Assembly: GCF_014217785.1 (NCBI RefSeq)
Contig: NZ_CP048814.1
Coordinates: forward strand, 1,116,001 to 1,180,000
Origin: Rhodococcus triatomae
GTDB lineage: Bacteria > Actinomycetota > Actinomycetes > Mycobacteriales > Mycobacteriaceae
DNA: 64,000 nt
Reading direction: 5' to 3'
Below the pieces are notes generated by a model, which ran no database searches, had not been told where the DNA came from, and saw only the letters and a list, made by a program, of their open reading frames with translations. The position numbers and the translations under genes are program-made. Positions 26,219-59,573 of this stretch are shown one piece after another; position 1 is the stretch's first letter; each line of letters begins with the position of its first letter.

Positions 26219-26983
26219 TCAGGCCCGGCCGTCGGCCTGCCTGGCCTGCTCTTCGAGGACCCCGCGCACGAGCCGGTCGATCTCCGTCGCCACTGCACCG
26301 GCCGATGCGGGCCGGGCGACGATCTCCTGGGTGTGCAGGATCAGGTATCGGCCGTCGTCGGCATAGTCGATCCATTGCAGTACGGTGCCGTCCAGCGGCG
26401 TCCGGCTACCGCCGCCGCCCGCCCTGGCGACGGCGATCTCCCCGAAACTGCTGTGCGCTCGGTTGAAGAACAGGGCCGCCTCGTCCGGGTCCGTCTCTGC
26501 CCCTGTCCCGCCGTCCGGCCCGGCAGATCGATTGCGGGGCACGGCGATACCTCGATCCCGACCGGCACCTACTCCGGGCATGGCCGCCACCAGCGCGGAC
26601 GACGCACCGTAGCCGACATGCTCCGACAACACGACATCGCCGCCGGAATCCGGCCCCGAGCCCGGCGCCTGGACCACCGCCACCGACGTGCGGTGCCCGA
26701 TGCCGGCGTGCGCCCGGATCATCCGTTCCGAATGCGGACCCGCGAATCCGCACACCGCCACGCGGACGACAGGTTCGGCGAGAGTGGCCAGCGCCCGGTA
26801 GAGATCGTCTCCGTAGCGGTCTCGCAACACCTCCGCAGCCTCGGCACGGCGGCGTTCGAGATCCTGTTCCGATCGCGCCCGATGCTCGCGAAACGCGAGC
26901 GGGAACGGTAATCGGCCACGCCCCAGCGACTCCCAGGCCACGACGAACTCGAGCGCTGACATCTCCCACGACGTTTCAGCCAC
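26219..26983 (-). CDS. EspG-family ESX secretion-associated protein, orphan
   Basis: 254 residues. It matches the EspG (PF14011) layout: N-terminal MSALEFVVAWESLGRGRLP, the middle beta region and the C-terminal pattern GTVLQWIDYADDGRYLI. EspG proteins are cytosolic chaperones for substrates of type VII (ESX) secretion. No ESX core gene is near; the only ESX-related genes in the window are the toxin cassette 30 kb away. Start GTG 26981-26983 behind GGACGGGGAA; a GTG at 26998 is also possible. It lies 117 bases downstream of purH on the same strand. Gly/Ser-rich insert around residues 150-185. Confidence 0.78.
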   Translation of the reverse strand: MAETSWEMSALEFVVAWESLGRGRLPFPLAFREHRARSEQDLERRRAEAAEVLRDRYGDDLYRALATLAEPVVRVAVCGFAGPHSERMIRAHAGIGHRTSVAVVQAPGSGPDSGGDVVLSEHVGYGASSALVAAMPGVGAGRDRGIAVPRNRSAGPDGGTGAETDPDEAALFFNRAHSSFGEIAVARAGGGGSRTPLDGTVLQWIDYADDGRYLILHTQEIVARPASAGAVATEIDRLVRGVLEEQARQADGRA

Positions 26984-27100
26984 TTCCCCGTCCTGCACGT
27001 TGCAGTTTCGTCACGAATATGGAACGAAAGTACCACTCGGCGGTGGTGTGCCGAGTGGTTCCGGGGGAACCGACGAGGAGAGGGATACGAGGCAGGAACG

Positions 27101-54622: not shown

Positions 54623-55918
54623 GTGCACCACATGACCAGAAGACGATTCCTCGCGACGACCGGGATCGCGGCGATCGGCGCGATCGGGCTCGCCTCGTGC
54701 GCCGACGACGCCGACACCACCGAGGCGGCCGACGCCACCGGCGGGGCGGGCGAGGGATTCGACCCGACCATCTGGCGGGAGAAGGGCGACCCGCTGGTCG
54801 CGCCGACCGGTTCGGGCCCGCTGGACGGCGACTCGGTGGCGGTCAAGGATCTCTTCGACGTGGAGGGGCACCGCGTCGGCGCGGGCAACGAGGAGTGGCT
54901 GGCACAGGCGAGCCCCGCAACCACCAGCGCGCCGGCCGTCGCCGCGCTGCTCGCGGCCGGTGCTTCGGTGGCGGGGATCTCCCGCACGGACGAGTTCGCG
55001 TACAGCCTCGCCGGGACGAACGCCCACTACGGGACGCCGCCGAACCCTGCCGCACCCGATCGCATCCCGGGCGGCTCGTCGTCCGGTTCGGCGAGCGCGG
55101 TGGCGTCCGGCGAGGCCACCATCGGGCTCGGCACGGACACGGGTGGATCGATTCGGGTGCCGTCGTCGTATCAGGGGCTGTACGGCATCCGGACGACGCA
55201 CGGCGCGGTGTCGACCGAGGGCCTGCTCCCGCTGGCACCGTCGTTCGACACGGTCGGGGCGATGACCCGCAGCGCCGACGAACTCGAGTCCGTCGTCGCC
55301 GTTCTGCTCCCCGAGGACGCGGCACCGGCCCCGACCCGGGCCGTCTACGCCGATCAGCTGCTCGACGTCGCCGATCCCGACGTCGCGACCGCGATGCGCG
55401 ACGCCGTCGCCTCGTGGTCCGTGCCGGGCCTGCCGATCGAGAAGATCGACTTCGACACCGCGGACCTCGCCCGGTGGGTACAGGCGTTCCAGATCCGCCA
55501 GGGGTACGAAGCCTGGCAGGCACACGGCGAGTGGATCGAGGGGCACTGGGAGTCGCTGAACCCGGACGTGCAGGCCCGGTTCGAGACCGCGTCCACACGC
55601 ACTCCGGACGATCTGGCCGAGGCCGATGCCGTACTGGCGGAGGCGCGCGAGCGCATCGACGGCGCGCTGGGCGAGGACTCCGTGCTGGTGCTACCGTCCT
55701 CGTCCTCGGTGGCGCCGCCGACGGACAGCGCCGCACTCGGTGGTGACGTCATCGAGGACATCCGGGCACGGACGTTCCAGCTGACCTGCCTCGCCGGGAT
55801 CACCGGCCGCCCCGCCGTGAGCGTGCCGCTCCCGACCGACGGCGCTCCGATGGGCTTGTGCCTGGTGGGCGCGCGCGGCTCGGATCGCGCGCTGGCGAGT
55901 CTGCGCCCGCTGGGCTGA
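54623..55918 (+). CDS. Exported amidase (Tat lipoprotein)
   Basis: 431 residues. Twin-arginine signal TRRRFLATTG with lipobox LASC, so it is exported folded and lipid-anchored. Amidase-signature domain with the Ser-cisSer-Lys triad: Lys in VKDLFDVEG, cis-Ser in GGSSSGSASAVASG and nucleophile Ser in GTDTGGSIRVPSS. Substrate unknown (amides or cell-wall peptides). The GTG at 54623 has AGGAG eight bases upstream; ATG at 54632 is also possible. Last gene before the toxin cassette; a remnant of a related amidase gene lies on the other side of the cassette (59409-59573). Confidence 0.88.
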   Translation: MHHMTRRRFLATTGIAAIGAIGLASCADDADTTEAADATGGAGEGFDPTIWREKGDPLVAPTGSGPLDGDSVAVKDLFDVEGHRVGAGNEEWLAQASPATTSAPAVAALLAAGASVAGISRTDEFAYSLAGTNAHYGTPPNPAAPDRIPGGSSSGSASAVASGEATIGLGTDTGGSIRVPSSYQGLYGIRTTHGAVSTEGLLPLAPSFDTVGAMTRSADELESVVAVLLPEDAAPAPTRAVYADQLLDVADPDVATAMRDAVASWSVPGLPIEKIDFDTADLARWVQAFQIRQGYEAWQAHGEWIEGHWESLNPDVQARFETASTRTPDDLAEADAVLAEARERIDGALGEDSVLVLPSSSSVAPPTDSAALGGDVIEDIRARTFQLTCLAGITGRPAVSVPLPTDGAPMGLCLVGARGSDRALASLRPLG

Positions 55919-55965: not shown

Positions 55966-56475
55966 TCAGTTGCCGATCCGGATTGCGTTGAGGCCAGTCG
56001 GGTCGACGCATTTCAGGTAGGAATCGGCATGACTACGCCCGTCGACATACGGCCAGCTGCAATCCCATCCCCGGATCGTCAGGAACGCCCCCTGGCCCTG
56101 TTGCCGACCCGCCGCGATACCCGCCAGATAGTCACGCGCCACGCTCATCGCCTCGTCGCAGTGGACGGCCCCCTCGAGCACAGCTACCGGCGACGTGCGT
56201 CCAGTGTTCGGATTCGAGATCAGGTCGCAGACGACATCGAGCGGGGTCAGCTCCTTCGACGGAGCCACTTCCGTAACCGAAGTCGTTGCTTCGACACTCC
56301 GTGACGACGTCGCCTCGACCACCGAGTTGCCCGGAATGGACTCGACCGAGCTGTGTGTCTGGGTCATCGGGTCAGACGAGGAAGTCGTCTCCGACGAGCA
56401 GCCCGCAAGGTATACCCCGATCACCCCGATCACCCCGATGATCGCACCGATCCTGCAGGCGTCCGACAGACCCAT
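55966..56475 (-). CDS. Lipoprotein at the end of the toxin cassette
   Basis: 169 residues. Lipoprotein signal with lipobox LAGC (Cys26) and hydrophobic core IGVIGVIGV, encoded by a 9-bp repeat; then a Ser/Thr-rich linker and a small domain with four cysteines ending NAIRIGN. I do not recognise a family. ATG 56473-56475 behind GGGGGAG. It is the last gene of the WXG100-toxin-ankyrin-YbaB series (38-base gap), so it could be a surface-side immunity factor or accessory protein; this is inferred from position only. Confidence 0.72.
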   Translation of the reverse strand: MGLSDACRIGAIIGVIGVIGVYLAGCSSETTSSSDPMTQTHSSVESIPGNSVVEATSSRSVEATTSVTEVAPSKELTPLDVVCDLISNPNTGRTSPVAVLEGAVHCDEAMSVARDYLAGIAAGRQQGQGAFLTIRGWDCSWPYVDGRSHADSYLKCVDPTGLNAIRIGN

Positions 56476-56513
56476 GGAATTCTCCCCCTTTGAACCGCCA
56501 ACGGCCGGTTCCT

Positions 56514-56945
56514 TCAACGATCATAGATGCTCCCACCTCGCCGCTCGATCCAGCTCACGTCCGGATCGGACGGCTGCACCGACGACTCGGGTGGATCAGC
56601 CAAACCAGCCCCGAAGAAGGCTTCGGTCAGCCTGCGTGCATCGCGGACCGCCGGATCCTGCTCGAGGTCGGTCAACGCGGCGCGCAACGTGTCGAGGCGA
56701 TTGCGGTCGGCACGCTGGTAGGCATCGATGATCAGTCGCGCAAGCGAGGCAGGGGAATTCCGCATCGCCTGCGGCGTGAGAGCGAGCCCCGCAAGCTTGC
56801 CGTCCACGTCGATCTCGACGGAAACACCCGCCGACGTGCTCACCATCGCCGACGCGTCTGCGGCGGCAGCCCTCGCAGCGGCCACCTTCTCCCGGAGCCG
56901 GTCGAGTTCCGGGCTGTCGGGAAGTGCAGGATCCGGTTGCGTCAT
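56514..56945 (-). CDS. YbaB/EbfC-like protein in the toxin cassette
   Basis: 143 residues. N-terminal coiled-coil helix (LDRLREKVAAARAAA), then VSVEIDVDGKLAGLALTPQAM and LARLIIDAYQRAD, the YbaB/EbfC pattern. The YbaB family contains nucleoid-associated proteins; related proteins are often encoded next to WXG100 genes in actinobacteria and may act as adaptors. Its start overlaps the ankyrin gene stop by four bases, so it belongs to the cassette. Ends with an Asp/Arg-rich tail. Confidence 0.78.
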   Translation of the reverse strand: MTQPDPALPDSPELDRLREKVAAARAAAADASAMVSTSAGVSVEIDVDGKLAGLALTPQAMRNSPASLARLIIDAYQRADRNRLDTLRAALTDLEQDPAVRDARRLTEAFFGAGLADPPESSVQPSDPDVSWIERRGGSIYDR

Positions 56946-57361
56946 TGGTCTCGGGCAGCGAGAGCTTCGGTGATCGCTTCCGTCTTGGGTCCCGGCGCAA
57001 TCACCCTGAGCATGTCAACGACCGACCGACCACTCGTGTTCTTGATCGTGGGATCAGCTCCTCGTTCGATTAACAGCGCCAACAGCAGAGGGTGAGCTGG
57101 ATTTCCCCTAGGTGCCAGCAAAGCGGTCCACAGTGGCGTGTTTCCGTGTCGATTCAGCGCGTTGACATCCGCACCCGCTTCGAGCAGAGTAGATGCTGCC
57201 GCCAACGCGCCGTGTTGTGCTGCGAAATGCAGCGGCGTGACATTCTCCTCATCCTTGGCATCGACATCAGCGCCTGAGGCAAGCTGCACTCGAACCTCAT
57301 CGACATTGTTCTCTCCCGCCGCGTAATGCAGCGGAATACGTCCAGCTTGATCGGTACTCAC
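56942..57361 (-). CDS. Ankyrin-repeat protein, presumed immunity protein
   Basis: 139 residues made of about four ankyrin repeats (RIPLHYAAGENNVDEV, VTPLHFAAQHGALAAA, NTPLWTALLAPRGN, and a C-terminal cap), with the GADVDAKD/GADVNALN turns. It starts in a 4-base ATGA overlap with the toxin gene. Ankyrin proteins are a known immunity type downstream of polymorphic toxins, so it probably binds and blocks the GH-E nuclease. No signal peptide, so cytoplasmic, as expected for a nuclease inhibitor. Base composition is lower in GC than flanking genes. Confidence 0.85.
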   Translation of the reverse strand: MSTDQAGRIPLHYAAGENNVDEVRVQLASGADVDAKDEENVTPLHFAAQHGALAAASTLLEAGADVNALNRHGNTPLWTALLAPRGNPAHPLLLALLIERGADPTIKNTSGRSVVDMLRVIAPGPKTEAITEALAARDQ

Positions 57362-58683
57362 TGTCCCTCCCGGGGTAGCTTCGGCTTTTCGAATCGGTGA
57401 CTTCGGTTCGAAACCGGATCTTCGATTTCATATAGATCAGGATTGTTGTAGTAGTCGTTGAGTTCCTTGCGAGTCCATTGTTCGTCGCGTGCCCTATCTC
57501 GAATCCTCCACCATTCGTCGCCGTATCTGTGTCCGTAGTCGAAGGGACCATCTTTCGGGATGACCGCACCTGTGTTGGGGTCGATATAATCGCCGCCCGA
57601 AGTCTTCTCCGCCTTCTCCTGGATCTCCTCCCGCGTGTTCTTCCGTAGGTAGGGGCGCCGCGAATAGCCATCGGTTCTCGCAGCCCACACACCGACCCCG
57701 CCAGCTGATGCTGCGCCAATCCACTCGGCGCGGGCGGCCAGGACAGGGACGGTCCGCTCGACCGTGCGTCCGAGTGCGCCGGCGGCCGCGACCGCGGGAG
57801 TCCCCGCGGCCCCGGCCGAGACGCGGAAGGCGCGGATCAGCGACGCGACACGCGCACCGGCTGCCGCCATCCGCGCTCCAGCGGCACCCTGTGCAGCGGC
57901 AGCCCCGACACCCGCGGTGAGGAAACCGATAAGTATGGCCGCGATCTCGGTCAGACCTAACTCGATACCCATCGAGATCAGCGCGTCTTCGACCTCGTAT
58001 CGCACCGTCTCGATCTCGAACGCGTAGCCCTCGCACGCTTGGGCGAGTATGTCGAACTGATCAGCGACGTCGCTGTAGTCGGCGGCTAATAGCCGGCATT
58101 GCTCCACCGCTGCGGGAACTTCGGGTGACTGCTGCGCTTCGATGAGTTCGATGGCAGGGCCTGCGTTGAGAACCGCAGTTCTCAGACCGGCACTGCCGAG
58201 GCGCCACGCGCCCGCGAGCGTACGGAGGCGATCGGGATCACCGTTGGGCCACAACTCGCCCTGAACGTAGGAGACGATGAAGCCCCACCAAGACGGTTCA
58301 CCAGTACTACCACCATAGGCCTTCGGGAAAGACGGGACGTAGAACGTGGGGGCGGAATCGAGAGGGACAGCGATGGCATTCGGATCACCGATCACCGACT
58401 CGTTGTTGGCCAGATCGTGGTTGAGGCCGGTTGCCTTCAACAAGTCACTGATCTGTCCAGCGGCGAGGATCAGCGCCGAGGCTGCGTCGATCGCATTGAA
58501 TGCTGCCGGGTCGTAGAGGCTGGCCCAGTTGGCACCGGCAAGGTCGGTGCCTGCACACCCACCGGATGCTTTCAAGGTGCCCGCCACTGCGTTGATGGCG
58601 TTCTCTGCATCATCGTGGATACGACGGAACCCGTCAGCGGCAGTAGTGAAATCGGCAGGCGCACAGACAATCGGGGAACTCAC
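57358..58683 (-). CDS. Type VII-secreted polymorphic toxin with GH-E nuclease domain
   Basis: 441 residues. An N-terminal helical region (about 1-240) looks like a WXG100-type secretion domain with ANWASLYDPAAF. It is followed by a Gly/Ala-rich hydrophobic region (about 245-330) and a C-terminal domain with YGHRYGDEW, LNDYYNNPDLYEIE and NRSHRFE, the GH-E motif of the HNH/Endo VII nuclease superfamily (residues about 384-432). It should degrade nucleic acid in a rival cell. The start at GTG 58681-58683 overlaps the WXG100 stop (GTGA); GTG at 58692 adds three residues. The C-terminal coding part is about 53% GC by hand count over 57361-57600, well below its surroundings. Confidence 0.85.
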   Translation of the reverse strand: MSSPIVCAPADFTTAADGFRRIHDDAENAINAVAGTLKASGGCAGTDLAGANWASLYDPAAFNAIDAASALILAAGQISDLLKATGLNHDLANNESVIGDPNAIAVPLDSAPTFYVPSFPKAYGGSTGEPSWWGFIVSYVQGELWPNGDPDRLRTLAGAWRLGSAGLRTAVLNAGPAIELIEAQQSPEVPAAVEQCRLLAADYSDVADQFDILAQACEGYAFEIETVRYEVEDALISMGIELGLTEIAAILIGFLTAGVGAAAAQGAAGARMAAAGARVASLIRAFRVSAGAAGTPAVAAAGALGRTVERTVPVLAARAEWIGAASAGGVGVWAARTDGYSRRPYLRKNTREEIQEKAEKTSGGDYIDPNTGAVIPKDGPFDYGHRYGDEWWRIRDRARDEQWTRKELNDYYNNPDLYEIEDPVSNRSHRFEKPKLPREGQ

Positions 58684-58970
58684 AAGTTCCACATCCGCAT
58701 GTTGGTTTCGACGGCATCGCTGTAATTGTCATGAGCGATGCGTCCGGCCGCGCGCAAATCTTCGAGGGCTTCGCGCATCTGCTGGACCCCGCGTGTCCAG
58801 TCATCGTGGGCGTCACGCTGCGCTTGCGCCGCTCGACCTGTCCAGGTTTCGTGGAGGTCGGCAAGATGTCCTTCGACGGCAGTGATGATGTCGTCGACGT
58901 TCGAGTCGAACGTCTCGACCTTGCTGATCGTTTCATCGAGGCGGTCGAGGTCGACACGGAACTTCGACAT
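58680..58970 (-). CDS. WXG100 family protein (ESAT-6-like)
   Basis: 96 residues, helix-WTG-helix layout with W43-T-G45, the size and motif of WXG100 proteins secreted by type VII systems. It probably pairs with the WXG100 protein upstream and/or the toxin N-terminus. The ATG overlaps the stop of the first WXG100 gene (TGATG) and its own stop overlaps the toxin start, so all three are translated together. Confidence 0.9.
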   Translation of the reverse strand: MSKFRVDLDRLDETISKVETFDSNVDDIITAVEGHLADLHETWTGRAAQAQRDAHDDWTRGVQQMREALEDLRAAGRIAHDNYSDAVETNMRMWNL

Positions 58971-59284
58971 CAGACCAGCCCGTTGAGGGAAGTGATCGCC
59001 GTGGCATGGTCCTGGTCCTGGTCTTCGTATGCCCCGGCGGTGTCCGAAAGAAGTACCGAAGACTCAGCGAAGGCCTCGCTGACCTGACGAGCACCATCGC
59101 GCCACTCTTCCCACGCCGCGGAGAACGCTTCCGCGGCGACGCCCTGCCAACCGTCATCGAGTAGATCTTCGACCGCCTTCGTGAGCGCATCGAGATCGGT
59201 ACGAAGATCGTCTGCTCGCCCGCCCACGAATGATGACGCCGCTTGTAGACGCTCGACCGACACTTCGAGGCTGTGATCCCCCAT
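58970..59284 (-). CDS. WXG100 family protein (first gene of the toxin cassette)
   Basis: 104 residues with GWQG at 45-48 between two helices, and YEDQD at 86-90, which fits the YxxxD/E export signal of ESX substrates. ATG 59282-59284 with GGGGGAGCGGG upstream. It starts the six-gene series towards 55966. The other partner of the pair lacks a clear YxxxD/E, so the secretion signal seems to be carried by this protein. Confidence 0.9.
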   Translation of the reverse strand: MGDHSLEVSVERLQAASSFVGGRADDLRTDLDALTKAVEDLLDDGWQGVAAEAFSAAWEEWRDGARQVSEAFAESSVLLSDTAGAYEDQDQDHATAITSLNGLV

Positions 59285-59408: not shown

Positions 59409-59573
59409 TCGGTGGGTGCAGACGTTCCAGGTCCGGGAGCAGCACGAGGCGTGGCAGGCCCAGGCGAGTGGATCGAGGCGCGCGGACGCATTGACGACGC
59501 TCCGACGGGGCTGTGCCTGGTGAGCGTGCGGATCGGATCGCGCGCTGGCAGGTCTGCGCCCCCTGGGCAACTT
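59409..59573 (+). pseudogene. Remnant of an amidase gene
   Basis: Two fragments homologous to the amidase at 54623-55918 are joined here: 59409-59480 matches its region around 55472-55543 (RWVQ-F-R...EAWQA) and 59498-59573 matches its last codons around 55835-55918 (GLCLV...GSR/DRA). The middle is deleted and the reading frame is broken. The match is diverged, so this is the debris of a second amidase gene, on the far side of the toxin cassette. Confidence 0.75.

Follow-up and report, generated by a model that had tools for sequence, protein, structure and literature searches.

The analysis of a 64,000-nucleotide stretch of the Rhodococcus triatomae genome (contig NZ_CP048814.1, positions 1,116,001 to 1,180,000; hereafter the window) indicated that five genes on its minus strand probably form one type VII secretion cassette, which encodes two WXG100 proteins, a CpnT-like toxin, an ankyrin-repeat protein and a YbaB-fold protein, and from which a sixth gene, coding for a lipoprotein, is excluded. 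We regard as probable the explanation that this is a CpnT-like polymorphic-toxin cassette, in which the ankyrin protein would provide immunity and the YbaB-fold protein would act as a chaperone, with export by an ESX-4-type machine and the lipoprotein as a neighbour. The core of such a cassette is not new, since it is described by the PEST3 cassettes of Mycobacterium abscessus prophages and by the list of Zhang et al. (2012). The less expected part is YbaB as a recurrent component: nothing linking it to CpnT-like cassettes was found in the literature searched, which was covered in part and had subscription papers and preprints largely outside it, and the portion of PMC3482391 covered makes no mention of YbaB.

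Six open reading frames (ORFs) lie on the minus strand from 59284 to 55966 (Table 1). This arrangement had been put forward in an earlier note made from the sequence alone, and all ORFs and family matches were confirmed, the lipobox by reading of the sequence. Five of the ORFs overlap, and the sixth starts 38 bases after the YbaB-like ORF. The overlap is of 1 base between the two WXG100 genes and of 4 bases both between toxin and ankyrin genes and between ankyrin and YbaB-like genes. The toxin start is ambiguous: GTG 58683 gives 441 residues and a 4-base overlap with the second WXG100 gene, GTG 58692 gives 444 residues and a 13-base overlap, so that the overlaps range from 1 to 4 bases with the former start and from 1 to 13 bases with the latter. 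The arrangement is not due to chance, because the same order of homologous genes was found in other genomes. G+C content is 55% in the toxin tip and 59% in the ankyrin gene, for 69% in the window.

The two WXG100 genes stand directly upstream of the toxin gene, as expected of a CpnT-like cassette. The Y...[DE] C-terminal signature is present in the first protein and absent from the second, and among cassette rows with two WXG100 genes it was found in 62/86 of the first proteins and 0/86 of the second, a split which suggests different tasks for the two partners. A recurring N-x-x-M-W motif was seen to end the second WXG100 in about a dozen rows inspected. A Y...[DE] motif within the toxin secretion domain was unaligned in relatives, by reading of the alignment, and was not used. 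In the whole genome (4.77 Mb, a single contig), 16 WXG100 matches were found, the six strong ones forming three pairs, located in this cassette, in the ESX locus and in a second cassette (L025), both described below.

In the toxin (P0001), PF25547 (WXG100_2) was matched by residues 136-274 (E-value, E, 8.4e-11). The AlphaFold2 model (mean predicted local distance difference test score, pLDDT, 62) displayed two long hairpins, made of helices 12-43/51-96 and 153-185/192-259, and its best Foldseek match in the Protein Data Bank was EspB (E 0.045, template modelling (TM) score by target 0.57), the matches including the EspB-EspK complex. We thus recognise, with moderate confidence as regards the fold, the N-terminus of about 300 residues with two WXG100-like hairpins that is typical of CpnT-like proteins. 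At the other end, the match to PF14410 is above the curated cut-off and contains the conserved GH, E, N and E of Tox-GH-E; residues G387, H388, E393, N429 and E435 are indeed invariant across 7 aligned toxins. Along 96% of its length, the protein is 33.5% identical to a polymorphic toxin of the M. abscessus prophage prophiGD36-2, and a single-protein search of genome contigs with it returned no relative.

An ankyrin gene was found next to the toxin gene in 14/14 GH-E cassettes of the comparative set described below, versus 0/83 of the other cassettes, and this association therefore supports the ankyrin protein as the cognate immunity protein. Its homologue in prophiGD36-2, which matches Ank, is annotated 'polymorphic toxin immunity protein', and both Imm-ank and export by a type VII secretion system (T7SS, WXG) are listed for Tox-GH-E in the table of Zhang et al. 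(2012; PMC3482391). On the basis of genetic association, the ankyrin protein would hence protect against the GH-E tip. The effector cassette proposed in the earlier note, with its WXG100 pair, GH-E toxin and ankyrin candidate, is thus supported by the domains and by the 14/14 association.

A profile of the toxin secretion domain was searched across 301 genomes of the family (31 genera), and CpnT-like N-termini were present in 112 of these genomes and 19 of these genera. Two sets of loci were considered, one of 60 (the top-ranked places outside Rhodococcus among the matches listed) and one of 38, which overlap partly in source genome (e.g., L213 and L283). A CpnT-like ORF was present in 60/60 and 38/38 loci, and at least two WXG100 genes, on either strand, in 57/60 and 36/38, respectively. 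Both sets were pooled with phage, plasmid, genus and own-genome loci, and 124 CpnT-like hits were reduced to 97 deduplicated cassettes, lying in 89 loci, by removing those with fewer than 200 model positions and those with identical N-termini. A conserved gene order with differing toxin tips, a check set beforehand, was indeed found in other genomes. The C-terminal domain appeared exchangeable, with 30 tip clusters among the 97 cassettes. The five-gene order, free of extra genes, was observed in the window, L223, L236, Nocardia asiatica (L274), R. ruber (L275) and N. macrotermitis (L279); N. wallacei (L271) has the same succession of WXG100, WXG100, toxin, ankyrin and YbaB genes with two ankyrin genes, and L227 has an extra ORF. 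The Nocardia and R. ruber GH-E cassettes (L271, L274, L275, L279) thus share the gene order of the window, without a lipoprotein of the window family. The tip found in five Rhodococcus loci (L083-L087) is similar to the cytotoxic domain of colicin E3, a match to PF09000 being confirmed in L213, which belongs to the same tip cluster; in some of these five, several paralogous genes for immunity-like proteins of about 81 residues and a second CpnT-like gene come after the cassette.

The fifth protein of the cassette belongs to the YbaB/EbfC fold family (PF02575), by sequence profile and by fold. PF02575 was matched at E <= 0.01 by 16/16 and 13/13 aligned cassette YbaB proteins, the window protein included, and a profile of the cassette YbaB family retrieved Escherichia coli YbaB (1pug) with E 2.7e-6. 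The model of the window protein (mean pLDDT 81, 87-98 in the core) presents a helix, three strands and helices, in that order, and 1pug is also its closest solved fold (E 0.014, TM-score by target 0.63). A tail motif shared by YbaB proteins was dropped as a general motif, as tails differ by clade and some are missing; in two loci of another genus (L089 and L090), the YbaB tail is like that of the window protein.

A co-directional YbaB gene was located at most 4.5 kb downstream of the toxin in 29/97 cassettes, and within 1.2 kb of the toxin end in 26 of these 29. Counted by locus, this corresponds to 17/60 and 15/38; the 60 loci gave 18 downstream hits before removal of L267, where the hit adjoins a recR-like gene (by reading), and four more hits (L234, L238, L239, L254), which lie upstream or on the opposite strand, were left out of this count. 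L214 gave a short hit, of 82 residues. In 34 of 35 other loci used as a control (about 0.32 Mb, the remaining locus being that of the window), no YbaB hit was obtained at E 1e-4, and the plasmid collection contained no relative of the window YbaB. As for the tips, YbaB was found with 11 different clusters among the 97 cassettes, and it is present in 8/14 GH-E cassettes, the 6/14 without it all retaining the ankyrin gene.

YbaB appears tied to the secretion fold and not to the tip, because of these 11 tip clusters, of its co-variation with the secretion domain, of its presence in 21/21 split loci and of its presence in both cassettes of the R. triatomae genome. Concerning co-variation, YbaB presence changes 8 times on a quick tree of the secretion domain, with 4 changes forced by well-supported branches, for a mean of 25.2 changes after shuffling (0/500 shuffles as low as 8; near copies contribute). 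YbaB distance correlates with N-terminus distance at r = 0.89 and with second WXG100 distance at 0.71, and its correlation with sharing the same tip, given the N-terminus, is 0.08. Concerning split loci, PF25547 matches occur in 22/28 Rhodococcus genomes, and in 20 of them YbaB precedes a WXG100-like gene (Pfam WXG100 at E 0.0018, one checked) and a short PF25547 protein, in 21/21 fetched loci of this kind (L062-L082). These short proteins have about 220 to 330 residues, and the one checked (L064) matches PF25547 alone; such loci seem to encode a split CpnT-like secretion domain without a toxin tip, L082 running to a contig end, where presence of a tip cannot be told. Concerning the host genome, L025 (C1:1644000-1656000) is a second CpnT-like cassette, with a WXG100 pair, a PF25547 toxin with an Ntox24 tip, a HEAT-repeat protein and YbaB, so that YbaB accompanies both cassettes despite different tips and immunity candidates.

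This pattern bears on the role of the YbaB-fold protein. A second immunity or toxin-neutralising function is suggested by the position of its gene, immediately after the immunity gene, which it overlaps by 4 bases; yet this is hardly credible, as YbaB accompanies 11 tip clusters, shows a divergence to which the identity of the tip adds little when the N-terminus is taken into account, and is absent from six GH-E cassettes that all keep the ankyrin gene. A role as local DNA-binding regulator of the cassette, similar to nucleoid-associated YbaB/EbfC, would agree with the DNA binding for which the family is named, with E. coli YbaB as closest fold and with the decrease in whiB6 expression upon loss of EspL in M. 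tuberculosis (PMC6319747). We consider it unlikely, although less so than a second immunity function, since the neighbours of the window gene are the ankyrin and lipoprotein genes and not recR, which characterises nucleoid-associated YbaB, since only L267 reads as recR-adjacent among the 18 downstream hits of the 60 loci, and since YbaB co-varies with the secretion domain and accompanies the short PF25547 proteins. Moreover, EspH binds EspE, which was read as chaperone activity, and the authors excluded that EspL acts directly on the transcription of espE/F/H (PMC6107294, PMC6319747). By analogy with EspD, EspH and EspL, YbaB-like proteins proposed as ESX-1 chaperones in the same papers, the window protein may thus be a chaperone of the toxin secretion domain; the earlier statement that YbaB has no assigned function in such systems does not hold in view of these proposals. 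YbaB/EbfC genes are also located near ESX-1 genes in several Mycolicibacterium genomes, according to a table of PMC11206017.

The earlier note had also described a self-contained unit and pointed out that no ESX core was present. The latter is correct within the window but not genome-wide: the only EccB match of the genome lies at a distant locus, together with EccC, EccD, EccE, MycP, an Rv3446c-like protein and two WXG100 proteins. This locus appears to be of the ESX-4 type, and is placed by reading beside ribosomal-protein genes. As the cassette contains no secretion machine, the idea of self-containment is not supported. M. tuberculosis requires ESX-4 to export CpnT (PMC8593097), and by analogy the ESX-4-type locus is the likely exporter of the toxin.

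Several points weigh against the explanation favoured here. YbaB proteins are known above all for binding DNA, and the window protein (P0003), taken alone, scores below the Pfam cut-off for YbaB_DNA_bd (E 3.1e-4, 21.3 bits; curated cut-off 25.5). YbaB is not universally needed, since no downstream YbaB was found in 68/97 cassettes, in any of the 14 mycobacterial loci of the 38-locus set (0/14) or in the prophage cassettes (0/2). Nor did YbaB hits occur in the five Rhodococcus WXG-WXG-toxin loci at another site (0/5, L083-L087), three of which carry two CpnT-like genes. The correlation of 0.89 is no proof of contact, because linked genes share descent, and the short second WXG100 makes a noisy yardstick. 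The toxin model is weak, with long stretches of the tip below pLDDT 50 in addition to the low mean, and its EspB matches are never better than E 0.045. Another chaperone family could serve, because the genome has 9 EspG-family matches. Finally, work on M. marinum names ESX-5 as the exporter (PMC8092274). One EspG-family gene (PF14011) lies in the window itself, at 26219-26998 on the minus strand, beside a gene which reads as PurH-like (purine synthesis).

The lipoprotein has to be considered separately. It matched no Pfam family at E <= 1, and among NCBIfam models only LppU, far below its cut-off (E 0.068). Relatives, with a conserved cysteine-bearing C-terminal half, were present in 24/301 genomes of the family, its own included, and in 27 Rhodococcus/Gordonia plasmid records. 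Neighbourhoods were fetched for 20/28 places outside its own and for 3/27 plasmid records, two of the latter being the same plasmid, and no WXG100, CpnT-like or YbaB hit was obtained in these 23. It could be proposed that all six genes form one functional unit, with the lipoprotein serving export or immunity from the cell surface, as it lies on the same strand, 38 bases behind YbaB, and as the toxin-like and YbaB genes of L089 and L090 are separated by one for a different lipoprotein-like protein. This is very improbable: the family is absent from both sets of cassette loci (0/60 and 0/38), its relatives occur in 24/301 genomes and stand apart from cassette genes in the 23 neighbourhoods fetched, and the lipoprotein-like protein of L089 is outside the window lipoprotein's family. 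The lipoprotein, counted as a unit member in the earlier note, is probably a hitch-hiking neighbour and not a component of the cassette. L089 and L090 were also seen to carry a WXG-like gene, and the toxin-like position is occupied there by an alpha/beta-hydrolase protein (match to PF06259 checked in L089).

On one side the cassette is bordered by an amidase gene, and on the other by a degenerate copy of the 3' end of that gene. The corresponding direct repeats are 55838-55875/59493-59530 (84%), 55871-55915/59524-59568 (89%) and 55526-55544/59463-59481 (95%), and they may be the trace of an insertion or recombination. No empty insertion site could be named in 28 genomes of the genus, because amidase relatives there are only 45-50% identical. 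Seven neighbour genes encode an enoyl-CoA hydratase, an Fpg-like protein, the amidase, CobF, an alpha/beta-hydrolase-like protein, thymidylate synthase and one unmatched protein, and none of those scanned (seven with NCBIfam, six with PHROGs) matched a phage structural or integration family. A prophage origin is thus unsupported, the matched neighbours being metabolic or repair genes, and the cassette was not filed as PEST. It might also be a decaying remnant without present function, considering that L025 is interrupted by two apparently identical two-ORF transposon or insertion sequence copies and one Mutator-type transposase gene, that an amidase fragment flanks the present cassette and that its tip is low in G+C. 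We find this improbable, because the five cassette frames are open with short overlaps and the GH-E residues are intact.

Table 1. Location of the cassette genes, toxin domains and flanking features in the window.
Feature	Position	Strand	Basis
First WXG100 (EsxF position), 104 residues	58970..59284	-	PF06013 E 4.6e-18; TIGR03930
Second WXG100 (EsxE position), 96 residues	58680..58970	-	PF06013 E 4.3e-15
CpnT-like toxin, 444 residues	57358..58692	-	PF25547 and PF14410
Predicted toxin secretion domain, two helical hairpins, EspB/PE-PPE-like	57793..58692	-	AlphaFold2 model and Foldseek
GH-E (HNH/EndoVII) nuclease tip, residues 367-435	57388..57594	-	PF14410 E 1.7e-22
Ankyrin-repeat protein, 139 residues, proposed cognate immunity protein	56942..57361	-	Ank families, Ank E 2.6e-18
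YbaB-fold protein, 143 residues, proposed secretion-domain chaperone	56514..56945	-	PF02575; 1pug profile and fold matches
Lipoprotein, 169 residues, ATG 56475, judged a non-member	55966..56475	-	Distribution of relatives
Amidase gene bordering the cassette	54632..55918	+	PF01425 E 6.2e-56; NF006169 above cut-off
Degenerate second copy of the amidase 3' end, opposite side of the cassette	59463..59568	+	Direct repeats, alignment

Comparison with known systems places the cassette more precisely. The gene order of the M. tuberculosis cpnT operon is esxF-esxE-cpnT-immunity gene. Both systems share two WXG100 genes and a toxin N-terminal domain needed for secretion; by contrast, the tip is GH-E here instead of TNT, the immunity protein is of the ankyrin type and YbaB follows, CpnT being compared by description. 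A closer likeness is found in M. abscessus prophages. Genes 66-63 of prophiGD36-2 share the WXG-WXG-toxin-immunity order, the N-terminal family, the GH-E tip and the ankyrin immunity protein, the toxin record being annotated 'with GH-E residues and WXG motif' and followed by the immunity gene, and prophi62-1 likewise combines this order with a GH-E tip and an ankyrin immunity gene. PEST3 systems of such prophages comprise two WXG100 genes, a CpnT-like toxin and an immunity gene, with no ESX core; one PEST3 N-terminus is reported to superimpose on that of CpnT, and each of the two PEST systems tested, one of them PEST3, harmed M. smegmatis unless its immunity gene was present (PMC10654092). PEST3 is prophage-borne, whereas no phage family was found among the neighbours here, and the two prophage cassettes fetched are without YbaB. 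The list of Zhang et al. (2012; PMC3482391) offers the same toxin domain, immunity type and T7SS export in Tox-GH-E/Imm-ank. As for YbaB, EspH and EspL are reported to have a YbaB-type fold and are encoded beside type VII substrates, EspL adjoining espK/espB (PMC6107294, PMC6319747). The likeness to EspD, EspH and EspL, drawn by description, resides in this fold and in the resemblance of the window toxin's secretion domain to EspB; here, by contrast, YbaB stands within an effector cassette, away from any ESX locus.

From a mechanistic point of view, the two WXG100 proteins would be the partner pair needed for toxin export, as EsxE/EsxF are for CpnT. The first 290 or so residues of the toxin may form an EspB/PE-PPE-like double hairpin which carries the protein to the type VII machine, and the last 70 or so a GH-E nuclease that would cut DNA in a competitor cell. 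In the producer, the ankyrin protein would bind and block this tip, while the YbaB-fold protein, as a cytosolic chaperone or targeting factor, would keep the secretion domain in solution and competent for export up to its arrival at the ESX-4-type machine.

The wider question is how type VII toxins encoded outside ESX loci stay soluble, safe and aimed at the right machine. A YbaB protein that recurs with the secretion domain, whatever the tip, offers a direct handle on it, in non-pathogenic actinobacteria. More broadly, we tentatively propose, with slightly less than even confidence, that YbaB-fold proteins join EspG and EspK as a third broad class of type VII chaperones in actinobacteria, devoted to secretion domains of the EspB/CpnT type, serving ESX-4 as well as ESX-1, and moving with the secretion module whatever its tip, its split version included. 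If true, the chaperone idea developed for EspD, EspH and EspL would reach beyond the ESX-1 systems of pathogens and apply to interbacterial toxins as well, and ESX-4 would be a toxin exporter.

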